Source of the DNA: Vulcanimicrobiota bacterium
GTDB taxonomy: Bacteria; Vulcanimicrobiota; Xenobia; Xenobiales; JADMJV01
DNA length: 64,000 nt
Direction of reading: 5' to 3'
Assembly: GCA_019637395.1 (NCBI GenBank)
Contig: JAHBVR010000002.1
Location: forward strand, 195,495 to 259,494
Shown here: in pieces, positions 2,688 through 10,681 of the stretch
Numbering within the stretch: the first letter of the stretch is position 1
Layout of the letters: each line of letters opens with the position of its first letter
Position numbers and translations under genes: made by a program
The notes under the pieces: model-generated
Databases searched by the model: none
Seen by the model: the letters and a program-made list of their open reading frames with translations, nothing else
Told to the model about the DNA's origin: nothing

Positions 2688-3637
2688 TCACCATGTTGGA
2701 AGCGATCCGCCAGGCTTTGCGTGACGAGCTGGCCGGCGATGACAAGGTCGTCCTCCTGGGCCAGGATATCGGCGACTTTGGAGGAGCCTTCAAAGTTACT
2801 CAGGGTCTGGTGGAGGAGTTCGGCGAGCAGCGCGTGGCCGACACCCCCATCAGTGAATCCGCCATGATCGGGGCCGCTATCGGGGCCGCCATGGTCGGCC
2901 TGAAGCCGGTGGTCGAGATGCAGTTTATCGACTTTCTGGCCTGCGGATATAACCAGTTGGTCAACTTTGCCGGCAAGATGCGCTATCGCTGGGGCCAGGG
3001 CGCCTCGCTGGTGGTGCGCGGACCGTGCGGGGCCGGTGTGAGCGGTAGCGCCTTCCATTCCCAGAGTCCCGAGTCGACCTACCTGTGCGTGCCGGGCATC
3101 AAAGTGGTTTATCCCAGCACCGCCGAGGATGCCTACGGGTTGTTGCGTAGCGCCATTCAAGACCCGGACCCGGTGCTCTTTTTAGAGCATAAATTTCTCT
3201 ATCGGCGGATTAAAGGCGAGGTGGGCCATCAGCCCATTCCCCTGGGTAAGGCGGCCCTTCGCCGGCGGGGAGAAAAGCTGTCGGTCATCACCTATGGCGC
3301 CAGCTCGCACACGGCCCAGGAAGTGGCCGAACAGTTCGGAGACCAGGTGGAGGTTATCGATTTGCGCTGCCTGCAGCCGTTAGATGAAGCCTGCCTGTTT
3401 GAATCGGTGAAGCGCACCAACAAAGTGCTGCTCTACCATGAAGCCCAGAAAACGCTGGGAATGGGAGCGGAACTGTCGGCACGCATCAGTGAACAGCTCT
3501 TTGAGTATCTGGACGGCCCGGTGGTCCGCGTGGCCGCTCCGGATTCGCCGGTGCCGTTCAGTCCCAACCTGGAGAAAGCCTGGCTCCCGGGGGCGGAGCA
3601 GTTGGCGGAGGCTTGCCGCCGGTTGCTGGCCTATTGA
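2684..3637 (+). CDS. pdhB: 2-oxoacid dehydrogenase E1 beta
   Basis: This is the beta subunit of the heterotetrameric E1, forming the ThDP-binding and subunit interface with the gene upstream. Family hallmarks are LGQDIGDFGGAFKVTQGL near the N-terminus, DTPISESAMIGAAIG, the core QFIDFLACGYNQLVN, and the C-terminal transketolase-type domain (VIDLRCLQPLD). The 317-residue length is normal. The start is GTG at 2684, overlapping the preceding stop by 4 bases. The last 7 bases overlap the convergent MerR-type gene, so this operon has no terminator of its own visible here. Confidence 0.9.
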   Translation: MITMLEAIRQALRDELAGDDKVVLLGQDIGDFGGAFKVTQGLVEEFGEQRVADTPISESAMIGAAIGAAMVGLKPVVEMQFIDFLACGYNQLVNFAGKMRYRWGQGASLVVRGPCGAGVSGSAFHSQSPESTYLCVPGIKVVYPSTAEDAYGLLRSAIQDPDPVLFLEHKFLYRRIKGEVGHQPIPLGKAALRRRGEKLSVITYGASSHTAQEVAEQFGDQVEVIDLRCLQPLDEACLFESVKRTNKVLLYHEAQKTLGMGAELSARISEQLFEYLDGPVVRVAAPDSPVPFSPNLEKAWLPGAEQLAEACRRLLAY

Positions 3638-4578
3638 AATAACGAGAGCAGATCGCTTTCTTGCAGATGAAAGAGGGAGACCTCGCCAGGCCACAGGATC
3701 ATTCCGTAGCCTTTGAGTTCGCTTTCTTCTTCCCGTTTGACGGCTCGGCCCCCCACAATCAGCCTGGTTTCGGCCGAGAGGGTTTGAGCGAATTGAATAA
3801 GCCCCGGCTTGTGGACTTCCAGCAAAGCGGCGCGCGTGACCGAGAGCATGACCAGTTGTGGCCGGCGTACCTGCACGGCCGTGGCCAGAGCTTCAAACGG
3901 CAGGGCCGGGCCCAGATAAAGCACTTGCATGCCCATGTGCAGCAAATGATAGGTCGCCAGGTGCAGGCCTAAATCGTGGTATTCGTCCGGAAATCCGGCG
4001 CACAGCGCCAGGGGGCGTTGTCCGGAGCGATTCTCCAAATCGTTCATTCGTTGCAGGCGGCGAATCAGGCATTGGGTCAGCAGATGCTCGGCCGCCACCG
4101 AGGCCAGTTGGCGGGCCCAGAGTTGGCCGATTTCCTGAGCCAGGGGCACGACCAGATGTTCCAACACCTGGGCCGCGGATATCGAGCCAAAGGCCAGGTC
4201 CAGCCCCCGCTGAATGCCCTGGTCGTCAAGGGAAAGAGCGGCTTGCAGAATTTCCTCGCGTAGACTTTCCAACAAGGGGAAGGCCGTGGAGGCTTGTTGA
4301 CTCGGGCCGGGCATAGGATGGGCGTCCCGGGAGAGCAGACGGCTTCGACCTTGAGCGACAATTTCACCGATGGAACGCCCCTGGTCGAGCAAATTGCGCA
4401 CTCGTCTCAAAACCCGCAGATCGTCGGCCGTGTAAAGACGGTGGCCGGTATCGGTGCGAGTTGGCACCAGCAATCCGTAACGTCGCTCCCAGGCGCGCAA
4501 AAGAGTTGGATTGAAGCCTGTTAAAGAAGCGATCGTCTTAATTTTATAGAGATCCCTGGGACTGCTCTGAACGCTCAC
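3631..4578 (-). CDS. CarH/LitR-type MerR regulator with cobalamin-binding domain
   Basis: This is a predicted B12-dependent transcriptional repressor. Residues 10-75 form a MerR-type DNA-binding domain (TLLRAWERRYGLLVPTRT, then GHRLYTADDL). Residues about 105-180 are the helical cobalamin cap. They carry the W-x9-EH signature of light-sensing CarH proteins (Trp154, Glu164, His165). Residues 190-310 are a Rossmann-like B12-binding domain with the E-x-H-x-x-G motif (Glu199, His201, Gly204) that supplies the lower axial ligand. In Thermus CarH, as I recall, a His directly after the Trp becomes the upper ligand after light exposure; here that residue is Ala155. The gene diverges from a lipid-modification operon, with operator-like repeats between them. 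Confidence 0.85.
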   Translation of the reverse strand: MSVQSSPRDLYKIKTIASLTGFNPTLLRAWERRYGLLVPTRTDTGHRLYTADDLRVLRRVRNLLDQGRSIGEIVAQGRSRLLSRDAHPMPGPSQQASTAFPLLESLREEILQAALSLDDQGIQRGLDLAFGSISAAQVLEHLVVPLAQEIGQLWARQLASVAAEHLLTQCLIRRLQRMNDLENRSGQRPLALCAGFPDEYHDLGLHLATYHLLHMGMQVLYLGPALPFEALATAVQVRRPQLVMLSVTRAALLEVHKPGLIQFAQTLSAETRLIVGGRAVKREEESELKGYGMILWPGEVSLFHLQESDLLSLFQ

Positions 4579-4619: not shown

Positions 4620-4648
4620 ATTAAAAAACAATAATAACTTATCGTCAA
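4620..4648 (-). promoter_or_regulatory. Candidate sigma-70 promoter of the CarH-type gene
   Basis: Read on the minus strand, TTGACG (4648-4643) and TTTAAT (4625-4620) are separated by exactly 17 bases and lie upstream of the regulator's ATG at 4578. The -35 element directly abuts the repeat block at 4652-4681. A regulator bound there could therefore control its own gene as well as the divergent operon. Confidence 0.55.
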
Positions 4649-4651
4649 GGA

Positions 4652-4681
4652 TTAAACAATTGTTGGACAATTATTGGACAA
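4652..4681 (+). promoter_or_regulatory. Three tandem 11-bp repeats, candidate CarH operator
   Basis: TTAAACAA (4652-4659), TTGGACAA (4663-4670) and TTGGACAA (4674-4681) start exactly 11 bases apart. Each fits T-n-n-A-C-A. To my knowledge, Thermus CarH binds as a tetramer to tandem 11-bp direct repeats of the form nnTnnACAn overlapping the promoter, and this block has the same period and core. It sits between the CarH-type gene and the flavin oxidoreductase gene. The -10 for the rightward operon is not obvious. Confidence 0.7.
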
Positions 4682-4724
4682 GGATTTCCAGGGGAATTCG
4701 CGACCGTGGAAAAGTCCGCCGGCT

Positions 4725-5960
4725 ATGGAAAACAAGCCGACCTGTGCGGTGATAGGCGGTGGCGTTGCCGGGATCGTGGCCGCCCACCTGCTTCAGCGAC
4801 GTTACCAGGTGGACTTATGGGAAAGCCAGCAGCGCTTGGGCGGGCACAGCAATACCTTCGAAGTATTGCAAGGAGAGGACGCCGGTCTCAAGATCGACAC
4901 CGGATTCATCGTCTTTAATGGAGAAACCTACCCTCTGTTTCAGCGGTTCTTGACTGAATTGGGGGTGGCCAAACAAATTTCCGATATGTCCTTCGGATAT
5001 TTTTGTGAAAAGACCGGCTGGGGCTATGGGGGCCACGATCTCAATACTTTCTTCGCCCAGCGCGACAAGCTGTTTCATCCGGATTTTTGGCGCTTCGCGG
5101 CCGATCTGGCGCGCTTTAACGTCGCCAGCTCGCGGCGCTTACGCGCAGGCCGGGTGGAAGGCAGTTTGCGCGACTATTTACGCGGCTACACTCGAACCTT
5201 CGTAAGGCATTACATTCAGCCCCTGGGCTCTTCGGTTTGGTCAGCACCGCTGGACAAGATCCTGGATTTTCCGGCTCAGACCTTCGTGCGATTTTTTGCC
5301 AATCACGGGTTGCTGCGCGTGGTGCGCCGGCCCGACTGGTTTACCGTTTTGGGCGGAAGTCGCAGTTATATACAGGCCTTTTTGCGGAGTTTTCAGGGCC
5401 GGGTGCGCCTCTCCTCGCCGGTGTGCCGGGTTCTCCCCGTCTCAGACGGCTACGAGGTAGAAGGCAACCGGTATGAAAAAGTGGTGCTGGCCACCCATGC
5501 CGATATTGCGCTGGCCCAGTTGCGGCAGCCCACTCCGTTGCAGCGCCAGTTGCTGAAGAATTGGAGGTACCTGGCCAATCGCGCGGTGCTTCATCAGGAC
5601 ACGACGCTGCTGCCGGCCAACCCTCGCCTGCGAGCCTCCTGGAACTACCGGCGCGGCCCGGGCTCCGAGCAACTACCCACCCTGACTTACGATATGAATC
5701 GCTTGCAAAGTCTGGCCTCGCGGCGCCGCTATCTGGTCACGCTGAATCCTCAGCGCGAGATCGATGCCTCGCTCGTGCTGGGCGAATGGATCTATCATCA
5801 CCCGCAGTTCGATCAGAACAGTGAAGCCAGTCAGGCCCTACTGCCTCGGTTGAACGATGGGACCATCGCTTTTTGCGGGAGTTATCACCGCTTTGGTTTT
5901 CACGAGGATGCCGTGATGTCGGCGGCGGCAGCCGCCGCCAGCCTGGGATGCCCGTGGTAA
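4725..5960 (+). CDS. FAD/NAD-binding amine-oxidase-like protein (COG2907 type)
   Basis: This is a flavin-dependent oxidoreductase of the family found beside cyclopropane fatty acid synthases. The FAD motif VIGGGVAGIVAA is at residues about 9-20. It is followed by LGGHSNTFEV and the family block IDTGFIVFNGETYPLF, and by C-terminal FCGSYHRFGFHEDAV. I place the start at ATG 4725, because a TTG at 4674 would lie inside the operator repeats and add residues not expected in the family. The Shine-Dalgarno sequence is weak. It is the first gene of a run of overlapping genes ending at 10681. The substrate is unknown; membrane-lipid acyl chains are likely from context. A related flavoprotein (UfaD) acts in furan fatty acid synthesis. 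Confidence 0.8.
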   Translation: MENKPTCAVIGGGVAGIVAAHLLQRRYQVDLWESQQRLGGHSNTFEVLQGEDAGLKIDTGFIVFNGETYPLFQRFLTELGVAKQISDMSFGYFCEKTGWGYGGHDLNTFFAQRDKLFHPDFWRFAADLARFNVASSRRLRAGRVEGSLRDYLRGYTRTFVRHYIQPLGSSVWSAPLDKILDFPAQTFVRFFANHGLLRVVRRPDWFTVLGGSRSYIQAFLRSFQGRVRLSSPVCRVLPVSDGYEVEGNRYEKVVLATHADIALAQLRQPTPLQRQLLKNWRYLANRAVLHQDTTLLPANPRLRASWNYRRGPGSEQLPTLTYDMNRLQSLASRRRYLVTLNPQREIDASLVLGEWIYHHPQFDQNSEASQALLPRLNDGTIAFCGSYHRFGFHEDAVMSAAAAAASLGCPW

Positions 5961-7960
5961 GCTCCAGAGTCTACCGGGGCGAGATCATGCACCACCGACT
6001 GCAGCCGGTGGTGCATCGCTTCGCCTACCCGGCCTATGTTTACGCTTTCGAAGTCAGTGAACTCGAGCAGTTATCCCGCCAGTTGAGGTGGTTCGGTTAC
6101 AACCGGGCCGGCCTGGTCTCCCTCCACAGTCGCGATTACCTCGACGGCAGCCAGCGCCCGCTATTGGAGAAGCTCCACGAGGTGCTGCGGGCGCACGGCA
6201 ACCAGACCCGGTGTTCGCGAGTCGTGCTGGTCACGGGGGCTCGTTTCCTCGGCTATATCTTCAACCCCGTCAGCTTCTGGTTCTGCTATGCGAACGAAGA
6301 GTTGGCTTGCCTGGTGGCTGAGGTGAACAACACCTTTGGCGAGCGTCATGTCTATGTCCTGGATGAAAAGCTTCCTTGTCATGCCCCCTTCTGCGCACGT
6401 TTTCGGGTGCCCAAAGCCTTCTACGTTTCCCCTTTCAATCCCATTCAGGGTGATTACGAGTTCCGGGTGGCTCATCCGGAGCAAAGCCTGGACATCCGCC
6501 TGCGCGTTTTCCAAAACGGGCGGCCGGTTTTCAACACCTGGCTGCGCGGGCAAGCCGAGTCGCTGGATGGGCGGGGTCTGTGGCGAACCCTGAGCGCCTA
6601 CCCCCTGACCGCCTGGTTGACGGTACCTCGCATTCACTGGGAGGCGGCCGTGCTCTTTTTCCAAAAGAAGCTGCCCGTGGTCTACAAACCCAGGCCCAGC
6701 CATCCCTCGACCATCCGCGCCGAGCCGCCCAGCCGGTTGCACCGCACCCTCATCTCGGTCGTGCGCGGCTTTCTGGTCAAAGCCGCGCGCGGCCGCCTGC
6801 GTTTTGATCTGCCTGACGGCACCCTCTGGGACTTCGGGCCGGGGGGTTTTCCAACGGCCGAAGTGCGGGTGCTCAACTGGGACTTTTTCTTGCGCCTGGT
6901 GTGGGATGGGGACGTGGCTCTGGGGGACGGGTTGGTGGCGGGAGAGTGGGAGTCTCCCGATCTGACGGCGGTGGTGCGATTCTTTATCGACAATCGAGAG
7001 GCGCTGGACGATCGCAAGGTCTCGCTGACGCGGATCCTGGGGCGGGGCTGGGGCTGGCTGCGCCAGCAGTTGCGGCGCAACTCTCTGGCCGGCAGCCGGC
7101 GCAATATCCAGGCTCACTACGATCTGGGCAACGAGCTCTACCGGCGTTTCCTCGACCCCGGAATGAGCTACTCCTGCGCCTATTTTTACGATGGGGAGTG
7201 CGACCTGGAGGCGGCCCAGCTGCGCAAAATCGACATGCTTTTAGATAAGGCCCGTCTGGACGCACAGACACATCTACTGGAGATCGGCTGCGGTTGGGGC
7301 ACACTGGCCATCCGGGCGGCCCAAAGGTTCGGCTGCCGCGTCACCGGAGTCACCCTCTCGCAGCAACAACTCGAGTGGGGGCGCGTGGCGGTGGCACAGG
7401 CCGGCCTGAGTGATCGCATTGATCTGCACCTTTGCGATTATCGGCAACTCCAAGGTCAATTCGACCGGGTGATTTCCTGCGAAATGTTGGAGGCGGTAGG
7501 CCACGAGAACTTGCCGCGCTATTTCGCGGCGCTCGAGCGCCTGCTGCGGCCCGAAGGAGTGGTGGTGCTGCAGGTGATCACGGTGCCGGATTTCAGCTAC
7601 GATGAGTATCGGGCCAACCAGGACTGGATTCAGAAGGAGATCTTTCCGGGCGCCCTGTGCCCCTCCATCAGCGCCCTGCTGCAGGCGGCCCGGCGTTCTT
7701 CGCGGTTGGTCCTGGAGGAACTCCAGAACATCGGGCCGCATTATGCGCGCACGCTGCGCGAATGGCGGGAACGGTTCGCTGGTGCCTGGCCGGAACTCCA
7801 GCAGTTAGGCTACGATGAGCGCTTCCAGCGCGCCTGGCGCTATTATCTGAGCTACTGCGAAGCGGCCTTCGCCAGTCGCAATTTAGGAGATGTGCAGATG
7901 GTCTTGAGTCGCCCCAAAAACGGGCTTTTGTTGAAGGAGAACCCGCCCTGGCTGTCCTGA
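5948..7960 (+). CDS. DUF1365 - cyclopropane-fatty-acyl-phospholipid synthase fusion
   Basis: One 670-residue frame joins two proteins that are usually separate neighbours. Residues 1-250 are DUF1365 (MHHRLQPVVHRFAY, and the hallmark FLGYIFNPVSFWFCY). Residues about 290-670 are a CFA-type SAM-dependent methyltransferase, with AHYDLGNELYRRFLDPGMSYS, the SAM motif LEIGCGWGTLA and the active-site region SCEMLEAVGHENL. The region that carries a catalytic His in E. coli Cfa (HTIG) here reads QVIT, as in a subgroup of homologues. The start ATG at 5948 overlaps the preceding gene by 13 bases. The domain should methylenate or methylate unsaturated acyl chains of phospholipids. The function of DUF1365 is not known to me. 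Confidence 0.85.
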   Translation: MPVVSSRVYRGEIMHHRLQPVVHRFAYPAYVYAFEVSELEQLSRQLRWFGYNRAGLVSLHSRDYLDGSQRPLLEKLHEVLRAHGNQTRCSRVVLVTGARFLGYIFNPVSFWFCYANEELACLVAEVNNTFGERHVYVLDEKLPCHAPFCARFRVPKAFYVSPFNPIQGDYEFRVAHPEQSLDIRLRVFQNGRPVFNTWLRGQAESLDGRGLWRTLSAYPLTAWLTVPRIHWEAAVLFFQKKLPVVYKPRPSHPSTIRAEPPSRLHRTLISVVRGFLVKAARGRLRFDLPDGTLWDFGPGGFPTAEVRVLNWDFFLRLVWDGDVALGDGLVAGEWESPDLTAVVRFFIDNREALDDRKVSLTRILGRGWGWLRQQLRRNSLAGSRRNIQAHYDLGNELYRRFLDPGMSYSCAYFYDGECDLEAAQLRKIDMLLDKARLDAQTHLLEIGCGWGTLAIRAAQRFGCRVTGVTLSQQQLEWGRVAVAQAGLSDRIDLHLCDYRQLQGQFDRVISCEMLEAVGHENLPRYFAALERLLRPEGVVVLQVITVPDFSYDEYRANQDWIQKEIFPGALCPSISALLQAARRSSRLVLEELQNIGPHYARTLREWRERFAGAWPELQQLGYDERFQRAWRYYLSYCEAAFASRNLGDVQMVLSRPKNGLLLKENPPWLS

Positions 7961-7998
7961 CCAAGGCCGGCCCGGACCGGATCGCTTGGAGCCGCACC

Positions 7999-8811
7999 GT
8001 GCCTTTCATCCTGATGCACCTGGCCTGCCTGCCGGTGCTCTGGTGCGGCGTCTCCAAGCTGGCCATCGGCCTGTGCTTTTTTAACTATGTGATTCGCATG
8101 TTCGGCATTACGGCCGGCTATCACCGTTATTTTAGCCATCGCTCCTTTAAAACAAGCCGGACCTTCCAGTTCGTGCTGGCCTGGTTGGGGGCTTGTTCCG
8201 CTCAGTTGGGACCGCTCTGGTGGGCGGCTCACCACCGCCACCACCATCAGCACTCGGATACCGAGAAAGATGCCCACACTCCCGGATTGAAAGGGTTTTT
8301 GTGGTCGCATATGGGCTGGATTTTTTGCTCCAGGTACCATGTGACTCATTATGACCGCGTGCGCGACTTCGCGGGCTATCGCGAATTGCGTTTCGTGGAG
8401 CGCAACTGGCTTTTGCCGCCCACTTTGCTGGCCGTTTCCACCCTGGTTTGGGGATGGTGGCTGGGCCGCTTCGCCCCCGAGTGGGGCACCAACGGCCTGC
8501 AACTGCTGACCTGGGGCTTTTTTGTCAGCACCTTTCTGCTTTACCACGCTACTTTCTGCATCAATTCCATGGCCCACCTGTGGGGCAGCCGGCGTTATCC
8601 CACTAAGGACGATAGCCGCAACAACTGGATGCTGGCGCTGGTCACTCTGGGAGAAGGCTGGCACAACAATCATCATCAGTACCCTTCCTCGGAGCGCCAG
8701 GGATTTTACTGGTGGGAAGTCGACGCCACCCATTACCTCTTACAAGTGCTGGCCTGGCTCGGCCTCGTCTGGGACCTGCGCCAGCCTCCTGAAGCGGCTT
8801 ACCGGCGATGA
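7999..8811 (+). CDS. Acyl-CoA / acyl-lipid desaturase
   Basis: This is a membrane di-iron fatty acid desaturase (stearoyl-CoA delta-9 type). Three histidine boxes are visible: HRYFSH, HHRHHHQH and GWHNNHH. Hydrophobic stretches lie near the N-terminus and at residues about 130-185. It probably makes the double bond used by the flanking CFA-type enzymes. The GTG at 7999 has GGAG 7 nt upstream. However, the frame is open further upstream, and codons encoding PDRIAWSRTVPF resemble a normal family N-terminus. A non-canonical CTG at 7948 preceded by AAGGAG (7934-7939) is an alternative start. The end overlaps the next gene (ATGA). Confidence 0.87.
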   Translation: MPFILMHLACLPVLWCGVSKLAIGLCFFNYVIRMFGITAGYHRYFSHRSFKTSRTFQFVLAWLGACSAQLGPLWWAAHHRHHHQHSDTEKDAHTPGLKGFLWSHMGWIFCSRYHVTHYDRVRDFAGYRELRFVERNWLLPPTLLAVSTLVWGWWLGRFAPEWGTNGLQLLTWGFFVSTFLLYHATFCINSMAHLWGSRRYPTKDDSRNNWMLALVTLGEGWHNNHHQYPSSERQGFYWWEVDATHYLLQVLAWLGLVWDLRQPPEAAYRR

Positions 8812-9584
8812 GCCTTTTTTTGATCGCACTGGGGTTTTGTTCGGCTTTCATGGCCCTGCTCTGGCTCATGCAGCGCTTCTTTACGCAGAACGCGGCCCTG
8901 GTCGACCTGGGCTGGACGCTCTTGGTTCCCTTGCTGCACCTCTATTTCGCCTGGTTCTCCGGAGGAGATCGGGGGCGCGGGTTGTGGCTGGCCGCCATGG
9001 CCTGTCTTTGGGGAGCCCGTCTGGGCGCACACCTTTTCTGGACCCGGCTCCGCCCGGGTCTGGAAGAGGAGGGGCGTTATAAGAAGCTGCGAGAGGAATG
9101 GGGTGCCGGCTTTCAGAGCAAACTCTTCTGGTTTTATCAGACGCAAGCGCTGGCTGCCTTTCTGCTGGTGGCCGTCTTCTGGCCGTGCTACCGCGACGGT
9201 CGTTCGGCTCTCGGGTTTTATGAGCTGGCTGGCGCCCTGCTCTTCGCCGTCGGGCTGAGTGGCGGAGCTCTGGCCGACGCTCAGTTGGCCGCCTTCAAAA
9301 AACGTTCCCGGCCTGGTGAGGTGTGCCAGGAAGGTCTCTGGAATTATTCGCGCCACCCCAATTACTTCTTCGAAACGGTGCTCTGGTTCGGCTGGGCCAC
9401 GTTCGCGTTGGCCAGTCCCGGGGGAAGTTGGGCGCTGCTGGCGCCGCTGACTCTTTTGCACCTGGTGCTGAACGTCACCGGAATCCCTCCCACCGAGCAG
9501 CAGGCGCTGCGCAGCAAGGGCCACGCTTATCGCGAATATCAGCGCACCACCAGCGCCTTCGTGCCCTGGCGCAAGCGCCCATGA
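8808..9584 (+). CDS. DUF1295 family membrane protein (steroid 5-alpha-reductase-like)
   Basis: This 258-residue polytopic membrane protein carries the C-terminal family signature WNYSRHPNYFFE followed by GTP-free hydrophobic helices. The fold family includes steroid 5-alpha reductases and isoprenylcysteine methyltransferases. In many genomes DUF1295 genes sit with CFA synthases and LitR/CarH regulators. A role in reducing or otherwise finishing a modified acyl chain is inference. The gene is coupled by 4-base overlaps (ATGA) to the desaturase upstream and the methyltransferase downstream. Confidence 0.8.
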   Translation: MSLFLIALGFCSAFMALLWLMQRFFTQNAALVDLGWTLLVPLLHLYFAWFSGGDRGRGLWLAAMACLWGARLGAHLFWTRLRPGLEEEGRYKKLREEWGAGFQSKLFWFYQTQALAAFLLVAVFWPCYRDGRSALGFYELAGALLFAVGLSGGALADAQLAAFKKRSRPGEVCQEGLWNYSRHPNYFFETVLWFGWATFALASPGGSWALLAPLTLLHLVLNVTGIPPTEQQALRSKGHAYREYQRTTSAFVPWRKRP

Positions 9585-10681
9585 GCCTCCTCCTCAAGGC
9601 CATGGAATGGGTGTGGCCGGGGGATTTCCTGGTGCGGCGCGCCATTCGTGGCTTGAACCGAGCTCGTCTGCGCGAACTTCGCCAGGGTGGCCTGGAAGGC
9701 CAGCTCCGGCGCAAGCAGGCCTTGTTGGAGCAACTGCGCTCCAGTCCGCTGGCCGTCGTTCCCGAGCAGGCCAATGAGCAGCACTACGAGGTCCCGGCCG
9801 CCTTCTTCGAGGCCATGCTGGGACCTCACTTAAAATACAGTTCGGGCTACTGGCCGGACGGTGTGGCCAGCCTGGAGGCCTCCGAGCTGGCCATGCTGGA
9901 GCTGTATCTGGAGCGAGCTCAACTGCAGGACGGTCAGCGCATCCTGGACCTGGGCTGCGGTTGGGGCTCGCTCTCGCTGTTTCTGGCCGAGCGTTTTCCC
10001 ACCAGCCGCCTTCTGGGTGTTTCGAACTCCGCTTCCCAGCGTGCCTTTATTCTGGGACGAGCGGCCGAACGCGGGCTGACCAACCTGGAGATCTGGACCT
10101 GCGATATCAATCATCTGGAGCTTCCCGCGGCCGAGTTCGATCGTATCGTCAGCGTCGAAATGCTCGAACATGTGCGCAACTACGCGGCCGTCTTCCAGTT
10201 GTTGAGCCGGGCTCTGAAGCCCGACGGCAAGCTCTTCGTACACGTCTTTGCCCATCGCGAACACGCCTACACCTTCGAGCCGAGAGGGCAGGGGGGAGTG
10301 GCCGGCGACTGGATGGAGCGGGAGTTCTTTAGCGGCGGCACCATGCCGAGTTTGGACCTCCTGGCGCATTTCTGCGGGCCGCTCCGGGTCGAGGCGCAGT
10401 GGGCCGTCAGTGGCGCCCACTACCGGCGCACGGCCGACGCCTGGCTGGCACAAATGCGCCGCCGGCGCGCCCTGGTGGTGCCGCTGCTGCGGCGGACTTA
10501 TGGGCGTTCCTGGCGGCGCACCTGGCTGGGCTGGCAGTTGTTTCTACTGGCCTGCTCCGAGCTCTTCGGCTACCAACACGGCCAGCAGTGGTGCGTGCAC
10601 CACCTGCGCTTTAGCCCTGTTCCTGCAGATGCGCTTCCAGAAACCAGAGCCACTGGTCCAGATCACGCTGCACGTCGATGA
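9581..10681 (+). CDS. Second CFA-synthase-like SAM methyltransferase
   Basis: This 366-residue class I methyltransferase of the CFA synthase superfamily has the SAM motif LDLGCGWGSLSL, NQHYEVPAAFFEAMLGP-type N-terminal features (here NEQHYEVPAAFFEAML) and VEMLEHVRNYA. The segment LFVHVFAHREHAYTF and GGTMPS resembles the branch that includes plant coclaurine-N-methyltransferase-like proteins, not the branch of the fused enzyme at 5948. The two paralogues therefore probably do different steps. The start ATG at 9581 overlaps the DUF1295 stop. The last 71 bases overlap the convergent dps gene, and the C-terminal tail is probably not conserved. Confidence 0.82.
   Translation: MSLLLKAMEWVWPGDFLVRRAIRGLNRARLRELRQGGLEGQLRRKQALLEQLRSSPLAVVPEQANEQHYEVPAAFFEAMLGPHLKYSSGYWPDGVASLEASELAMLELYLERAQLQDGQRILDLGCGWGSLSLFLAERFPTSRLLGVSNSASQRAFILGRAAERGLTNLEIWTCDINHLELPAAEFDRIVSVEMLEHVRNYAAVFQLLSRALKPDGKLFVHVFAHREHAYTFEPRGQGGVAGDWMEREFFSGGTMPSLDLLAHFCGPLRVEAQWAVSGAHYRRTADAWLAQMRRRRALVVPLLRRTYGRSWRRTWLGWQLFLLACSELFGYQHGQQWCVHHLRFSPVPADALPETRATGPDHAARR

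Follow-up and report, generated by a model that had tools for sequence, protein, structure and literature searches.

CarH proteins bind tandem 11-bp repeats of the form nnnnTnnACAn. Three such repeats are found in T. thermophilus, and Bacillus megaterium CarH operators hold either four repeats or three and a pseudo-repeat, overlapping the -35 or -10 (PMC9304148, PMC8156234). In Pseudomonas, the class II LitR proteins PplR and PmlR, which are B12-free, control ufaM and phrB at TGTACA-N12-TGTACA sites (PMC9758184), and a link from the LitR/CarH family to ufa genes is therefore already known. In R. sphaeroides, UfaM (a SAM methylase), UfaD (an NAD-FAD enzyme related to phytoene desaturase) and UfaO (DUF1365) suffice to convert cis-vaccenate to a furan fatty acid (PMC7380195). 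The literature searched held no report of ufa control by an AdoB12-type CarH, and no paper in it mentioned CarH together with furan fatty acid or with cyclopropane.

We examined a 64-kb window (the whole stretch of DNA that was analysed) in which a CarH-like gene (4578-3631, minus strand) is separated by a 146-bp gap from a divergent five-gene operon (4725-10681, plus strand). The gap contains 11-bp repeats in tandem, each built around TnnACA. They likely serve as the operator for the CarH-type, AdoB12-binding repressor encoded next to them; this repressor would switch both its own gene and the lipid operon in response to light so that protective lipids are made. The features of the locus are listed by position in the window.

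3631-4578, minus: CarH-type regulator of 315 aa, with MerR HTH, B12-binding helical bundle and Rossmann domain (Pfam, phmmer, fold, residues)
4620-4648, minus: predicted regulator promoter read from the sequence, -35 TTGACG (4648-4643), 17-nt spacer, -10 TTTAAT (4625-4620)
4638-4648, plus: dr0, putative pseudo-repeat cttaTcgTCAa in the same 11-bp register
4649-4659, plus: DR1 of the putative operator, ggatTaaACAa
4660-4670, plus: DR2 of the putative operator, ttgtTggACAa
4671-4681, plus: DR3 of the putative operator, ttatTggACAa
4725-5960, plus: operon gene 1, UfaD-like FAD amine-oxidoreductase/phytoene-desaturase-like protein (Pfam Amino_oxidase, NAD_binding_8; weak CrtD/CrtI-family matches)
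5951-7960, plus: fused UfaO-like (DUF1365, Pfam E 6e-76) and UfaM-like (CMAS methyltransferase, Pfam E 4e-87) protein in a 669-aa frame
7999-8811, plus: fatty-acid desaturase (Pfam FA_desaturase, E 1e-19)
8808-9584, plus: DUF1295 membrane protein, steroid-reductase-like (Pfam DUF1295, E 1e-53)
9578-10681, plus: last operon gene, second CMAS-type methyltransferase (Pfam CMAS, E 2e-39; start codon uncertain in a longer frame)

Similar to T. thermophilus CarH (TtCarH), the regulator possesses the MerR, helical-bundle and Rossmann B12 domains of class I LitR/CarH proteins. Pfam MerR_1 and B12-binding_2 scored above cut-off, and the B12-binding Rossmann domain (E 2e-5) scored below its gathering score. 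The best relatives of solved structure were T. thermophilus CarH/LitR, with a phmmer match to TtCarH at E 5e-30 and ~30% identity. An AlphaFold2 model (mean pLDDT 85) also matched TtCarH best (Foldseek E 2e-18). Compared with DNA-bound TtCarH (5C8E), the model gave a Z of 23.1, and the B12 domain superposed at 2.0-2.2 A over ~200 residues; the full-length rmsd of 9.5 A most likely reflects a different orientation of the DNA-binding domain. The Wx9EH cap (W154, E164, H165) and the cobalt-ligand histidine (H201) are present, corresponding to W131, E141, H142 and H177 of TtCarH, and were kept in 17 of 18 aligned homologues. The CarH-like assignment made in the original prediction thus agreed with the sequence, the predicted fold and the residues that contact B12. 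The NCBIfam CarH equivalog NF052513 was still the best match at 135 bits, short of its cut-off of 400. Since the model is narrow and picks out close orthologues of CarH, CarH-type is the safer name. For making AdoB12, the window's genome encodes a PduO-type adenosyltransferase.

The regulator differs from TtCarH beside the Trp of the cap, where Ala155 occupies the position of His132 and no histidine was seen in any aligned homologue (0/18). In TtCarH, His132 is the upper light-state ligand and is required for disassembly in light to be efficient. It is variable across the family, so it is not strictly defining; lacking an equivalent, this protein may differ in its light step. How His132 contributes to the light response is debated, and a protein that naturally lacks it is relevant to that question. 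Without the second histidine that locks TtCarH in its light state, the regulator might bind the repeats and need B12 but act mainly as a sensor of AdoB12 level or redox, or show only weak light sensing. In a 2023 study, TtCarH H132A was mostly tetrameric after aerobic light, which speaks for such a sensor, although the same paper cites an earlier report of light-induced H132A disassembly (PMC10442372). We consider this reading unlikely, given that the B12-contact residues are intact and that a ufa-like operon together with a photolyase gene carrying a similar site (see below) points to light or photo-oxidative stress.

Less probable again is a B12-independent mode resembling that of CarA or class II LitR, in which the adjacent protein would repress without AdoB12 and be released by a partner protein. 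Precedents exist: M. xanthus CarA binds the same operator as CarH and needs no B12, class II LitR in Pseudomonas works with a LOV partner, and the sister genomes have MerR paralogues with a CarH-like HTH and no B12 domain. The locus also resembles the Pseudomonas class II LitR regulon (PMC9758184) in pairing a LitR/CarH-family repressor with ufaM-type and photolyase targets and with light, all of these links being predicted here. However, class II proteins have a partial B12 domain and recognise TGTACA-N12-TGTACA, whereas the regulator keeps the whole Wx9EH cap and the cobalt-ligand histidine and adjoins an 11-bp tandem; neither the class II site nor a degenerate B12 domain was found at this locus. 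Only one CarH-like protein was detected in the window's genome. These observations favour an AdoB12-binding repressor of the CarH type.

On the DNA side, TTAAACAA at 4652 and TTGGACAA at 4663 and 4674 form the repeats, whose full 11-bp units are TTAAACAATTG (4652-4662), TTGGACAATTA (4663-4673) and TTGGACAAGGA (4674-4684), with start-to-start distances of 11 and 11. The literature register nnnnTnnACAn puts the same units at 4649-4659, 4660-4670 and 4671-4681. The original prediction had placed three 11-bp-spaced repeats between the CarH-like gene and its divergent operon and had matched them to a T-n-n-ACA operator rule; the positions and spacing were exact, and the rule is that of the published operators (PMC9304148, PMC8156234). 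Known CarH operators comprise at least three tandem nnnnTnnACAn units, or a mixture of DR and dr units, and DR1, DR2 and DR3 are full matches across 4649-4681. As with TtCarH (PDB 5C8D/5C8E; PMC8156234), three tandem TnnACA repeats are present, and the putative operator would meet a predicted -35 box.

The triple repeat pattern had a single match in the 64-kb window and none in any of 100 shuffles; TTNNACA x3 had a single match in the 7.66-Mb genome and none in a reversed control. The minimal TNNACA x3 gave two genomic matches versus one in the reversed control; the bare triple is therefore not unique genome-wide, and its position rather than its rarity is the argument. Shuffling the 146-bp gap (first order, either strand) produced the TnnACA core triple in 1 of 100,000 trials. 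A test unbiased as to motif (any period of 8-14, three-way identity at least as high as observed) was weaker at 117/5,000 (p ~0.02), and so the strength of the result rests on a motif set beforehand by the literature.

The whole locus is present in two same-genus genomes, G001 and G003, whose regulators are 82% and 72% identical to that of the window. In the order DR1-DR2-DR3, the cores read TGAACA-TCTACA-TGGACA in G001 and TGATCG-TGGACG-TAGACA in G003, where two repeats, DR1 among them, are degenerate. Persistence of the 11-bp periodicity in orthologous gaps was one point on which the original prediction had said it could fail; the register was kept in both gaps with no indels in the repeats. 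Between G001 and the window, 0/12 core bases and 12/21 other repeat bases had changed. Across this footprint of three genomes, invariant positions made up 7/8 of the core versus 2/14 of the remainder for DR2 and DR3 (p 0.0015), and 9/12 versus 7/21 when all three repeats were counted (p 0.025). The same stretch contains an inverted repeat (AACAATTGT at 4655-4663 and ACAATTATT at 4667-4675, 89% complementary) that could serve a classical MerR dimer or another regulator, leaving the direct repeats incidental. We rejected this very improbable reading because neither G001 (GAACAGAGCCTCTACA) nor G003 retains the palindrome, whereas the direct TnnACA register persists.

The same signature was sought beside CarH homologues in other genomes, as had been proposed. 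Upstream of 20 homologues, all from outside this genus and including several other phyla, 17 TnnACA pairs were found at spacing 11, in 10 loci, where 0.08-0.15 were expected; no other spacing from 6 to 39 exceeded four pairs. Enrichment was thus at exactly 11 bp, in a set in which some loci are closely related to one another (two Verrucomicrobia, L042 and L058). No such repeat pair was seen at Ufa-like clusters without an adjacent carH in other Eremiobacterota, in the stretches examined (some contigs being short), and no such repeats were seen in the stretches examined near two phytoene/squalene-synthase-type loci. That the repeats arose by chance in an AT-rich gap is hardly credible: a genome should hold about one bare TnnACA triple by chance and the motif-free periodicity test was modest, but this site lies beside a CarH gene, is almost never recovered by shuffling, is conserved preferentially in its cores and shares its period with CarH loci of other phyla.

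The layout may extend to dr0-DR1-DR2-DR3, similar to the three DRs and one pseudo-repeat of Bacillus megaterium CarH/LitR (PMC9304148), where a unit likewise overlaps a promoter -35. The dr0 core, TCGTCA (4642-4647), is one base off TnnACA and reads TCGTCA in G001 and CCGTCA in G003. A repeat finder also located two copies of CAAGGATT, one at 4646 and one at 4679, separated by exactly three 11-bp periods (33 bp). Unlike in B. megaterium, dr0 is recognised here only from its register and single core mismatch, which suggest a fourth, degenerate unit and a four-unit operator. It overlaps the predicted -35 TTGACG of the regulator promoter, and bound regulator would therefore cover this -35. The hexamers and 17-nt spacing of this promoter are constant in the three genomes while the spacer sequence varies; the promoter is absent from the scanner list, as the scanner demands an A at position 2 of the -10.

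On the operon side, neither the scanner nor inspection by eye recognised a canonical sigma70-like promoter in the three genomes, and, unlike in T. thermophilus, DR3 does not stand out as a -35 for the operon. Placing the operon's -35 in DR1, DR2 or DR3 was rejected, since inspection of the three genomes showed no -10 at a distance of 16-18 nt. Between the repeats and the operon ATG, a block at 4685-4715 (AGGGGAATT...GTGGAAAAGTCC) is well conserved in the three genomes with no evident -10, and in the window it contains a 9-nt inverted repeat. This block may hold the operon start or an unusual promoter element.

The operon, whose gene order is identical in the two same-genus genomes, encodes UfaM-like, UfaD-like and UfaO-like (DUF1365) proteins together, as judged at the domain level against the R. 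sphaeroides enzymes (PMC7380195). This match in CMAS-like methylase, NAD-FAD/phytoene-desaturase-like enzyme and DUF1365 enzyme leads us to call it a Ufa-like cluster, by domains rather than by product. It looks like a furan-fatty-acid cluster and not a set of carotenoid genes; in this the neighbouring, lipid-modifying operon differs from that of T. thermophilus CarH. Unlike in R. sphaeroides, DUF1365 and CMAS are fused, a desaturase, a DUF1295 protein and a second CMAS are added, and the regulator is CarH-like rather than ChrR/sigmaE.

A related site, TAGACAAAAGGTTGACAA, lies ~30 nt upstream of a photolyase gene in the window genome (G000:C11:52964-52947, minus strand; gene product in the TIGR00591 superfamily at 353 bits, below cut-off). 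It consists of two repeats, TAGACA-N5-TTGACA (L087, L088, L089, L090), and is kept in four same-genus genomes, one of which has TATACA in place of TAGACA. Part of this conservation may stem from a divergent open frame, whose start the site overlaps. The site is likely a second target of the regulator. Two-repeat matches genome-wide were at control level (4 vs 5 in the reversed control), and we claim no regulon from counts alone. The second TnnACA triple of the window genome (G000:C15:17920-17893, minus strand; L082:1528-1501) lies 8-36 nt before a CheR gene and is divergent from a chemoreceptor gene; its first repeat is lost in the one close orthologue, in a sister genome. Outside the ufa locus, TnnACA triples in the sister genomes preceded unrelated genes.

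As read from the DNA, a CarH-type operator before the lipid operon is very likely functional. Because the repeats fit the binding signature of the sensor and are kept in two related species, a furan-fatty-acid-like pathway is probably under the control of a light switch that is known mainly from carotenoid regulation. In the dark, the AdoB12-bound regulator, probably a tetramer, would bind dr0-DR1-DR2-DR3 with its MerR heads lined up next to one another, covering the -35 of its own promoter (autoregulation) and keeping the divergent lipid operon off. Light would break the Co-C bond of AdoB12, whereupon the assembly would loosen and leave the DNA and the operon would be expressed. Its enzymes would then modify the acyl chains of the membrane, the probable products being furan or methylated fatty acids that would protect against light-generated singlet oxygen. 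We count against the operator reading the missing canonical operon promoter, the two degenerate repeats of G003, the alanine at the His132 position, the NF052513 score below cut-off and the small size of the same-genus footprint, at three genomes.

For a phylum that has received little study, sequence alone would connect a B12 photoreceptor with its operator. Such a system would also add membrane furan or methylated fatty acids to carotenoids as likely targets of AdoB12-type CarH. We advance more tentatively, as a possibility that we would not yet favour, that in this Eremiobacterota lineage an AdoB12-type CarH without the bis-His ligand directly light-switches both the furan-fatty-acid operon and the photolyase gene. 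If true, this would constitute a carotenoid-independent B12 photoprotection regulon operating through a His132-independent light step.

Proteins and sites resembling those of the window were also seen in related genomes. Proteins of ~400-430 aa (L045:5941-7152, L051:5974-7233 and L012) carry a CarH-like MerR HTH (54-60% identical) and a C-terminal half with no Pfam match and no B12 domain, and may combine the same DNA-binding head with a different sensor. Just beyond the 3' end of the L045 gene, and oriented towards it, is a triple TAAACA-TGTACA-TTGACA at 11-bp spacing (L045:7272-7245, minus strand), followed by TATACT at 16 nt. G001 also encodes a CarH paralogue (L035:6001-6756) that has lost the Trp/Glu/His cap and the cobalt-ligand histidine and is therefore probably B12-independent. 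In two other Eremiobacterota families (L007/L036 and L008), a CarH-like gene adjoins a fasciclin-domain gene, near which two TnnACA repeats lie 11 bp apart; in L007, one of these repeats is the TTGACA of a promoter-like TTGACA-N17-TATTGT.
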